NCBI GenBank assembly: GCA_004292955.1
Contig: RDXX01000039.1
Span: 62,001-126,000, forward strand
Reading direction: 5' to 3'
From: Oscillatoriales cyanobacterium
GTDB taxonomy: Bacteria > Cyanobacteriota > Cyanobacteriia > Cyanobacteriales > Microcoleaceae
Length of the DNA: 64,000 bases
Shown here: positions 59,370 through 62,164 of the stretch, in pieces
How the letters are laid out: each line of letters begins with the position of its first letter
How positions within the stretch are numbered: the first letter of the stretch is position 1
The notes under the pieces: model-generated
Seen by the model: the letters and a program-made list of their open reading frames with translations, nothing else
Database searches by the model: none
What the model was told of the DNA's origin: nothing
Made by a program: the position numbers and the translations under genes

Positions 59370-61238
59370 ATGCACAGCGCTTATATCAATCGGATTGGGA
59401 AATTTTTGCCGGGAGAAGCGATTAATAATGATGAGATGGAGGAGTATCTAGGCAAAATTGCCGATCGCCCTTCGAGAGTCAGACAGCGCATTCTCAACAG
59501 TAACGGGATTAAACAGCGTTATTATGCGATCGACAAACAGCAGCAAACACTCTATTCTAACAGCCAAATGGCAGCGTTTGCTGTCCGGGATGCGATCGCC
59601 CAGGCAAATTTGGAACCAGGGGCGATCGACTTACTCGCCTGCGCTACCACTTTACCAGACTTATTAGTACCAGGATTTGCCAGCACAGTACACGGGGAAC
59701 TTTCCGAATTATCTCCCCTAGAAATAGTTTCAACTCAAGGAGTTTGCTGTGCGGGAGTTACCGCCTTAAATTACGCCACATCTCAACTCGAACTCGGCAA
59801 AAAACAAACAGCAATCGCCGTAGCCTCGGAATTTCCCTCGCGCCTGTTCAAAAACAGCAAATTTGAAGTAGAAACATCAGTCCAAGCCGGAAAACCCCTA
59901 CCTTTCGATACAGAATTTCTGCGTTGGATGCTATCCGACGGCGCCGGAGCATTTTTGCTCCAAAACCATCCGAATGCCTCAGGAATTAGCTTAAAAATAG
60001 AATGGATTGAATTGATTTCTCACGCCAACGCTTATCCAGTTTGTATGTATTCAGGATTAGCAAACGAAACATCAACCAAAAGCTGGTTAGATTATTCATC
60101 CTACCTCGATGCAGCCACAGCCGGAGCCTTTGACTTGCGGCAAAATATTCGCTTGCTAGACAATGTAATGAAATTAGGCGTTGAAGGTTGGCTGGGCTTG
60201 ATTAAATCAGGGAGAGTTTGTCCGCAGGAAATTGACTGGCTGCTGTGCCACTATTCCTCTCACTTTTTCCGGGGACAAATTGTCGAACTTTTGGAACAAG
60301 CAGGCTGCATGATTCCCGAAGAAAAATGGTTTACTAACTTGTACTCGCGGGGAAATACAGGCTGTGCAGCGATTTATTTAATGTTAGAGGAATTGTTCAA
60401 CTCTGGCAAGTTGCAGTCTGGACAAAAAATCTTTTGTTTTGTTCCGGAAAGCGGTCGCTTTACAACGGCATACATGATGTTAACTGTTGTGGAAAACACT
60501 AATAAATCTATGACTTCTCAAAGTTTTCAATCCCTTGATGTTCCCGAAGCTTCGCCTCTCGAAAGTGTTAAACCGGAAATGTTTTACTCTCCGCAAGCTT
60601 ATTTGTTGCGGGAGTTAGCCTGGATTTGGCTGAGATTCGATCGCGAAATTCGTTCCGTTCCCATTGTCCGCAAATTGTACCGGGGAGAGTTTACAATAGA
60701 AGACTATCAAGCTTTGCTGTGCAATCTCCGCCCGCAAGTTGTCGAGGGAGCGCGCTGGATTGCTCGGGCTGCTTCTAACATGACTGACTTTCGTTTGCGA
60801 TCGACTTTTATAGGACACGCCCAAGACGAACACCGCGACTATCAAATGCTCGAACGGAATTATGTTTCTGTCGGAGGCGAGTTGTCAAAAATTGTGGAAT
60901 ATGATAAGAATATTGGCAGCGAAGCACTGTCAGCTTTTATCTTCCACCAAGCATCGCGGGAAAATCCGGTTGATTTAATTGGCAGTATGTTTATCATCGA
61001 AGGATTGGGAAATCGGTTGGCGGGAAAGTGGGCAAAAGAAATCAAAGAAACTCTCGGTTTGCAAGACGAACAAGTATCATTTTTAGCTTATCACGGAGCT
61101 AATGACGAGTCGCATCTAGCGAAATTAGAAAATTTGATTAATGCCGAATGGATGACGGATGATATCGCCCGCCGCATTGTCAAAACCGCCCGCGTTACTG
61201 CTCGTTTATATTTGCTGCAATTGGAGGAAATCCGCTAA
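59370..61238 (+). CDS. fusion: KAS III-like thiolase-fold enzyme + heme-oxygenase-like (HDO/TenA-like) domain
   Basis: KAS III-like TQGVCCAGVTALNYA, LLCHYSSHF, SRGNTGCAAIYL; C-terminal GHAQDEHRDYQ, FIIEGLG, YHGANDESHLAKLE. Confidence 0.85.
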   Translation: MHSAYINRIGKFLPGEAINNDEMEEYLGKIADRPSRVRQRILNSNGIKQRYYAIDKQQQTLYSNSQMAAFAVRDAIAQANLEPGAIDLLACATTLPDLLVPGFASTVHGELSELSPLEIVSTQGVCCAGVTALNYATSQLELGKKQTAIAVASEFPSRLFKNSKFEVETSVQAGKPLPFDTEFLRWMLSDGAGAFLLQNHPNASGISLKIEWIELISHANAYPVCMYSGLANETSTKSWLDYSSYLDAATAGAFDLRQNIRLLDNVMKLGVEGWLGLIKSGRVCPQEIDWLLCHYSSHFFRGQIVELLEQAGCMIPEEKWFTNLYSRGNTGCAAIYLMLEELFNSGKLQSGQKIFCFVPESGRFTTAYMMLTVVENTNKSMTSQSFQSLDVPEASPLESVKPEMFYSPQAYLLRELAWIWLRFDREIRSVPIVRKLYRGEFTIEDYQALLCNLRPQVVEGARWIARAASNMTDFRLRSTFIGHAQDEHRDYQMLERNYVSVGGELSKIVEYDKNIGSEALSAFIFHQASRENPVDLIGSMFIIEGLGNRLAGKWAKEIKETLGLQDEQVSFLAYHGANDESHLAKLENLINAEWMTDDIARRIVKTARVTARLYLLQLEEIR

Positions 61239-62164
61239 TGCAAAAGCTGCAAAAACAAGATATCGAAAGTCTCCCCGATGAGCGGCAAATCCCCTATGCG
61301 ACGAAACCGTACAACCGCCGAGATCCGAATGTTTGGGATGTCCTGTTTTGCGATCGGTCAATTCCCGTCGATTTAGTTGCAAAAGCATATATGATGCGGG
61401 ATTTGCAAAACTGGACTCGCAATTATTTGCTCATCCCGATCAAAATAATTGCTAACTTGTTGCTAGCGGTAATTATGATAGCAAAGCGCCTGTTGCCCTT
61501 TCAATTTCGCGCTTACACTTTAATGCACAAATCGGCTGCATTTTTCCTAAATAACTTTGTCTCGCCCGAAGCTTGTTATTTAATTGTGCGGCACATCAGC
61601 ATCGGCTCCAACATTATCAACTTCTTAATTGATAACGGCCCGGACACCCAGATTGAAAAGTCAAAACTTTATCCGCGTACAGTTAGCGATTTAGCAGAAA
61701 ATGCCTTTCTCGAACACGACTTAATTTTGTATAACTTTGTCTGGGACTACAACCAAGCAATACTGACAAATCCCAACTGGTTGCAGCTTGTCAAAAAACG
61801 CGGAATTAATTATGATAGCATTCAACCTGTGGAAGTTGCCATAGATTTTCAGAAACGCAGGTGGCTGAGGATTTTGGATTTAGAATCTGCGATCGAATTG
61901 TTTAAAGTATTTTATTCTCTCTGTTTGACTAGCGACGAATTTGCGCGAGCAGTAATGTCGCTTCAGTTAGATGAAAACTTCGGAGTGTACGTCAGCGAGA
62001 TTACCGGAAATCATGACTGGAATCATGTAATTGTCAACCGCCATCCGCTAGCACCAAACAGTCCGTTTAATGCAGCACGAGACTTGTTTTTGCACGGAAT
62101 AATTTCGGAATATCTCTATCGGTATTTAGAACTACAAAAAGAGATGAGCATTGCTGAAAATTAG
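61238..62164 (+). CDS. hypothetical protein translationally coupled to KAS III-HDO fusion
   Basis: TAATG overlap with upstream stop; one hydrophobic stretch; no family recognised. Confidence 0.75.
   Translation: MQKLQKQDIESLPDERQIPYATKPYNRRDPNVWDVLFCDRSIPVDLVAKAYMMRDLQNWTRNYLLIPIKIIANLLLAVIMIAKRLLPFQFRAYTLMHKSAAFFLNNFVSPEACYLIVRHISIGSNIINFLIDNGPDTQIEKSKLYPRTVSDLAENAFLEHDLILYNFVWDYNQAILTNPNWLQLVKKRGINYDSIQPVEVAIDFQKRRWLRILDLESAIELFKVFYSLCLTSDEFARAVMSLQLDENFGVYVSEITGNHDWNHVIVNRHPLAPNSPFNAARDLFLHGIISEYLYRYLELQKEMSIAEN

Follow-up and report, generated by a model that had tools for sequence, protein, structure and literature searches.

Which product would a ketosynthase make when it is joined in one polypeptide to an oxidase and followed at once by a second, conserved protein? 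The question is raised by a two-gene locus in a 64,000-nucleotide stretch of an Oscillatoriales cyanobacterium genome (the window, to which all positions without another label refer). A preliminary description had proposed a compact unit that forms an acyl product and then oxidises it, a proposal that holds in outline, given the conserved residues, the linkage across phyla and the occurrence of the same parts as separate genes elsewhere, while the chemistry is what we infer below. The two open reading frames that it described, with their one-base TAATG overlap, are indeed present. The first (59370..61238; + strand, as are all features within the two genes) encodes a 622-aa fusion of a ketosynthase (KS) and a heme-oxygenase-like diiron oxidase (HDO), recognised from the ORF list, Pfam, NCBIfam and PDB sequence matches. 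The second (61238..62164) encodes a 308-aa protein of the DUF6999 family (PF22523). KS, HDO and DUF6999 are called the trio hereafter. The junction between the genes reads ...TTGGAGGAAATCCGCTAATGCAA, with TAA (61236-61238) and ATG (61238-61240) sharing one A. Since this overlap is accompanied by a GGAGG ribosome-binding site at 61223-61227, ahead of the DUF6999 start (the site and overlap together span 61223..61240), translational coupling of the two genes is plausible.

The KS domain (aa 1-374; 59370..60491) was delimited from its matches to the NCBIfam StlD/DarB model PRK06816 and to PDB 5gk0 and from the predicted structure. It had been described as KAS III-like, and a KS domain was confirmed by Pfam (ACP_syn_III_C, 39.3 bits, cut-off 26.6), NCBIfam and PDB comparisons. 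The generic KAS III label did not stand, however: by sequence, the domain is best placed in the StlD/DarB branch, which forms 1,3-cyclohexanediones or resorcinols. Residues 4-374 scored 441.5 bits against PRK06816, just below its cut-off of 450 (a stand-alone BrtD-like KS, taken for comparison, reached 551 bits against the StlD/DarB family model), and the domain scored 392.8 bits against the DarB model and matched solved StlD (5gk0) with E=1.6e-87 and ~40% identity. An AlphaFold2 model of the fusion protein, computed with 40 homologues as input, had a mean pLDDT of 82.6. The best structural match of its KS part was StlD (TM 0.88 by target), with FabH and OleA well behind, and a segment at aa 375-407 (60492..60590), where pLDDT falls below 50 at aa 378-403, was assigned as a flexible linker to the HDO domain.

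The predicted active site agrees with this placement. The Cys, His and Asn candidates named in the preliminary description correspond to C126, the nucleophile (59745..59747), which aligns with the GACAAG Cys of StlD; H294 (60249..60251), whose StlD counterpart in the alignment is H302, the position altered in PDB 5gk2; and N329 (60354..60356), within a GNTG motif. This triad is invariant, each residue being found in 40/40 aligned fusions, and its members are among 40 invariant residues common to classical StlD/DarB and trio KSs. The family motifs FLRWMLSDGAGA, CMYSG and WFTNL..GNTG are also largely common to both. In sequence, predicted fold and active site, the trio KS is thus like StlD, DarB and BrtD, the KS of the bartolosides. 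An unrooted tree, which included no FabH outgroup, placed the trio KSs on one side of the branch from StlD/DarB (support 73/50), so that support for a grouping of their own, apart from classical DarB, is weak. Since the KS score lies under the family cut-off and this grouping is weak, another acyl condensation is possible.

One such condensation would be a head-to-head one, as catalysed by OleA and PpyS, giving a linear beta-keto acid, alpha-pyrone or olefin precursor, on which the HDO would act by UndA-like oxidative decarboxylation to release a hydrocarbon or ketone. UndA-type HDOs act on fatty acids, the OleA and FabH folds are also structurally close to the KS, and an aromatase is absent from the carrier genomes, all of which would suit a linear product; PMC13185094 cites UndA for desaturation coupled to CO2 loss. 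Against this, StlD is far closer to the KS than OleA is (40% identity and a Foldseek E of 1e-32, compared to 19-20% and 1e-16), and the residues common to ring-forming KSs are invariant. We therefore regard a linear product as unlikely and go on with a KS that would form a ring.

The C-terminal domain (aa 408-620; 60591..61229) was assigned to the HDO superfamily from a Pfam match to PF14518 (34.9 bits, cut-off 28.9), a profile match to the solved heme-oxygenase-fold protein 3dde (E=2.3e-8) and the AlphaFold2 model, in which it is all-helical (helices at 408-619). Both domains thus score above their Pfam cut-offs, as the domain search suggested in the preliminary description would have it. Among the proteins compared, the HDO has no close characterised member, its best solved relative, 3dde, being of unassigned function. 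The candidate metal ligands are E459 (60744..60746); the alpha-2 motif HxxxEHxD, that is H483-x3-E487-H488-R-D490 (60816..60839); E544 (60999..61001); and the HxxxDxxH motif, H575-x3-D579-x2-H582 (61092..61115). All eight of H483, E487, H488, D490, E544, H575, D579 and H582 are invariant in the 40 aligned fusions, while position 459 is E or D in all of them, and the candidate ligands are kept also when separately encoded HDOs are added to the alignment. A loss of these ligands in homologues, named at the outset as evidence against the reading, is therefore not what the alignments contain.

The motifs described earlier as E/H/D/H-type are accordingly real and conserved. The ligand set that they form, in contrast, is non-canonical because the usual ExxH reads ExxD: in the alignment with 3dde, E487 and D490 stand opposite the E and the His of its EAGH, and the canonical set of three His and three carboxylates is not matched, the ExxH His being D490 in all homologues. 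In MboA, which has a 3-His ligand set, the alpha-2 ExxH is Glu86/His89 (PMC13185094), and the CADD-like HDOs of relatives carry a His at a position other than D490. The fusion HDO has PF14518, HxxxDxxH and the alpha-2 and alpha-3 Glu in common with UndA, SznF, CADD, BesC and MboA, and differs from them in ExxD for ExxH, in the extra invariant H483 and H488 and in its fusion to a KS. Judged from its sequence, the site is a variant within the HDO fold family, a candidate dimetal site with Asp for His. Since the canonical third His is replaced by D490, the metal site and its chemistry may differ from those of known HDOs; the third His could perhaps come from H483, one turn ahead of E487, and a ligand role of either H483 or H488 is possible. 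The source genome contains four further PF14518 HDO genes beside the fusion (G000:C40, C153, C30 and C92).

The preliminary description recognised no family for the 308-aa protein. We found that it matches DUF6999 with 353 bits, aa 26-300 aligning with model positions 2-274/275. Its predicted structure is all-helical and confident (pLDDT 88.9). A Foldseek search of the PDB returned no significant match, the non-significant ones including HDO and ferritin folds, and a profile search of PDB sequences returned nothing credible. The idea that DUF6999 is itself a divergent HDO was not supported by profile comparison, which gave it a probability of 0.2%. A comparison of 12 sequences drawn from separate lineages showed a number of invariant polar residues, among them D55, K83, R84, R118, H119 and N133 and further H160, D161, D214, D245, H286 and E291, which would be compatible with a metal site.

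These residues raise the question of which protein does the oxidative work. DUF6999 might be the true tailoring catalyst, with the HDO reduced to an accessory metal-binding domain for delivery or structure: H119, H160, D161, D214, D245, H286 and E291 would suffice for a metal site, and the HDO carries a non-canonical ligand. However, the candidate ligands of the HDO are all kept whether it is fused or separate, which would be needless in a passive domain, and neither profile nor fold comparison links DUF6999 to any metal enzyme, and so we consider this division of roles improbable. If the HDO is instead the oxidase, as we prefer, DUF6999 would be its partner. A dedicated partner protein is known for the HDO MboA, namely MboB, an NAD(P)H/flavin/Fe2S2 reductase (PMC13185094), though profile and fold searches detected no relation of DUF6999 to such a reductase.

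KS, HDO and DUF6999 behave as a single conserved unit. In a sample of 248 cyanobacterial genomes, the intact KS-HDO fusion occurs in 7 and DUF6999 in exactly those 7, adjoining the fusion in each. The chance of such an overlap is ~1e-13, a figure weakened by shared ancestry; the carriers span four families. A further genome, G103, has a broken fusion (G103:C1:5339891-5341504; loci L006 and L042) with two stops, one TAG and one TAA, and DUF6999 has gone together with it, a joint loss. Scanning the genomes of 85,488 species yielded 65 DUF6999 loci, 60 of them cyanobacterial. KS and HDO lie directly upstream at 61, and the remaining four comprise two at contig ends and two with the fusion elsewhere in the genome; the pair is thus adjacent or elsewhere in the genome for 63/63 testable loci. 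The source genome is Microcoleus-like (7.29 Mb), and its nearest relatives among the loci are Microcoleus, Tychonema, Lyngbya and Phormidium records.

Beyond the cyanobacteria, the fusion was found in Longispora, in Acidobacteria and in one gammaproteobacterial MAG, and in Pseudoalteromonas and four actinobacteria each member of the trio has a gene of its own, the three lying side by side; KS and HDO are also separate ORFs in some cyanobacteria (L095, L097 and L103). Since the trio exists elsewhere as three separate genes, the fusion acts as a "Rosetta stone" that reveals a genuine partnership. The neighbourhood comparison thus bears out a trio linked across phyla. It is spread over four bacterial phyla and perhaps a fifth. 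An 'archaeal' locus (L112) has a gene content very close to that of the acidobacterial loci and has probably been misbinned; the same may hold for the locus of the gammaproteobacterial MAG (L109). As a control from Pfam, DUF6999 and PF14518 are both reported in Caulobacter vibrioides. No relative was found on viral contigs. At two loci, L045 (10590-12650) and L095 (5754-7994), the KS-HDO linker contains repeated PPTPLxKGG / GGGDSGG peptides that resemble interspersed DNA repeats, and in L095 two stops within the repeat stretch split the fusion.

That the locus is an ordinary housekeeping variant of fatty-acid or cofactor metabolism, a FabH-like enzyme with a TenA/CADD-like one and no specialised product, would suit a two-gene operon standing alone with no conserved regulator, transporter or activating enzyme nearby and some matches to the CADD model, but those matches are weak (best 1.6e-4), the unit is patchy among the cyanobacteria sampled and decayed in G103, and the source genome has a separate KASIII/FabH-like ORF (L002), making this reading very unlikely.

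Known ring-forming systems differ from a specialised trio of this kind in their company. StlD/DarB systems have a DarA partner and often aryl-polyene, glycosyltransferase or halogenase genes, and DarA and DarB are present in cyanobacterial dialkylresorcinol clusters (PMC8406957), whereas in the trio DarA is absent, an HDO is fused to the KS and DUF6999 lies alongside. No DarA-like protein was found in the source genome or in any of the 7 fusion genomes, G079 and G097 serving as positive controls. In these two, a stand-alone DarB-like KS adjoins a flavodoxin-like protein and a glycosyltransferase, a bartoloside-type arrangement; the flavodoxin-like protein, which matched no Pfam or NCBIfam model, is considered DarA-like on the grounds of where it lies and of the character of its sequence.

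One additional neighbour recurs across families, and it is the only one to do so: a COQ4-like protein beside the trio at 17/60 cyanobacterial loci. In the 248-genome sample it occurs in 2, both of them fusion carriers. It is about 160-170 aa long, carries HDxxHx11E in 12/12 of the sequences listed and scores 13.4-14.7 bits against Pfam Coq4, below the cut-off of 22.9. The motif corresponds to the HDxxHx10-13E metal motif of COQ4 (PMC9774615), the oxidative decarboxylase of the ubiquinone ring, and human COQ4 converts a ring carboxylate to a hydroxyl in one oxidative step (PMC11495197). By this analogy, the accessory points to ring-carboxylate chemistry at some loci. Since the gene is missing from the source genome and from most trio loci, it cannot be essential, and it was rejected as a core member of the unit.

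A larger gene cluster was likewise rejected, the flanks being kept among close relatives only and not across families. Genes such as serS and msrA and their neighbours are conserved beside the unit within the Microcoleus group only, and a 338-aa protein (57922-58938, - strand) with no Pfam or NCBIfam match lies next to it in 11 close relatives (at least 77% identity) and not beyond. The intergenic DNA before the KS-HDO gene contains a TTGACAG heptamer tandem repeat (59150-59190) and a CTTA tetramer tandem repeat (59300-59325). Several other surroundings were recorded. In Pseudoalteromonas (L125, 7439-7996), the gene ahead of the KS encodes a 185-aa His-rich membrane protein (HEVVAHWD, EMHAHSY) with no Pfam match, possibly another oxidative enzyme. 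In an acidobacterium (L110), a small DUF2834-like protein is encoded after the trio (8852-9205; 23.0 bits, cut-off 22.9). Lastly, a Streptomyces plasmid (L126, 7706-16144) bears an uncharacterised-looking cluster of a StlD/DarB-like KS, ACPs, a 321-aa protein, an FAD monooxygenase, a P450 and SCP2, without an HDO.

From this combination we infer a pathway that has, in our estimate, about an even chance of being right: the KS would use two acyl thioesters to build a ring of the cyclohexanedione type, which the HDO and DUF6999 would oxidise, replacing DarA or going further. The two genes would then encode a self-contained, three-module unit for lipid modification. Its substrates would be two fatty-acyl thioesters from ordinary fatty-acid synthesis, one 3-oxoacyl and the other probably 2-enoyl, and the KS product would be a 2,5-dialkyl-1,3-cyclohexanedione or its ring carboxylate. 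The dialkylresorcinol pathway runs through cyclohexanedione intermediates (PMC4414361), and DarB has been described as its cyclase and DarA as its aromatase (PMC3949708). The tethered HDO, with a dimetal site and O2, might oxidise the nascent ring by dehydrogenation (aromatisation), by oxidative decarboxylation/hydroxylation or by both, a step that would stand in for the flavodoxin-like aromatase DarA. DUF6999 would be the obligate partner of this step, either as a second metal-dependent catalyst or as a dedicated redox or assembly partner, and the final product would be a dialkylated resorcinol, hydroxyquinol or quinone lipid. A bolder version, which we put forward tentatively and think rather doubtful, is an O2-dependent lipid-ring pathway of four or five phyla in which the variant-site HDO and DUF6999, as a metalloenzyme of new fold, replace DarA and convert a cyclohexanedione carboxylate to a lipoquinone or hydroxyquinol.

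The KS family and the HDO superfamily are already known. The literature searched, which largely excludes subscription journals, yielded no characterised KS-HDO fusion, a precedent that the preliminary description had named as counting against its proposal; no mention of the DUF6999 family; and no description of the three-module unit, the fusion, the variant ligand set or the context of DUF6999, which as far as that literature goes are what is new. Its recurrence as a unit across phyla, without an assigned product, makes the trio a good candidate for a lipid-making pathway yet to be explored. Filamentous cyanobacteria commonly carry the unit, cyanobacterial loci being the great majority of those found, and it needs two genes only. 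It gives DUF6999, a family with no assigned function, a concrete biochemical context, offers an HDO with an unusual ligand set and makes a clear prediction of the metabolite class to be expected in trio carriers. It also suggests at least two solutions to the oxidative step in pathways of the dialkylresorcinol type.
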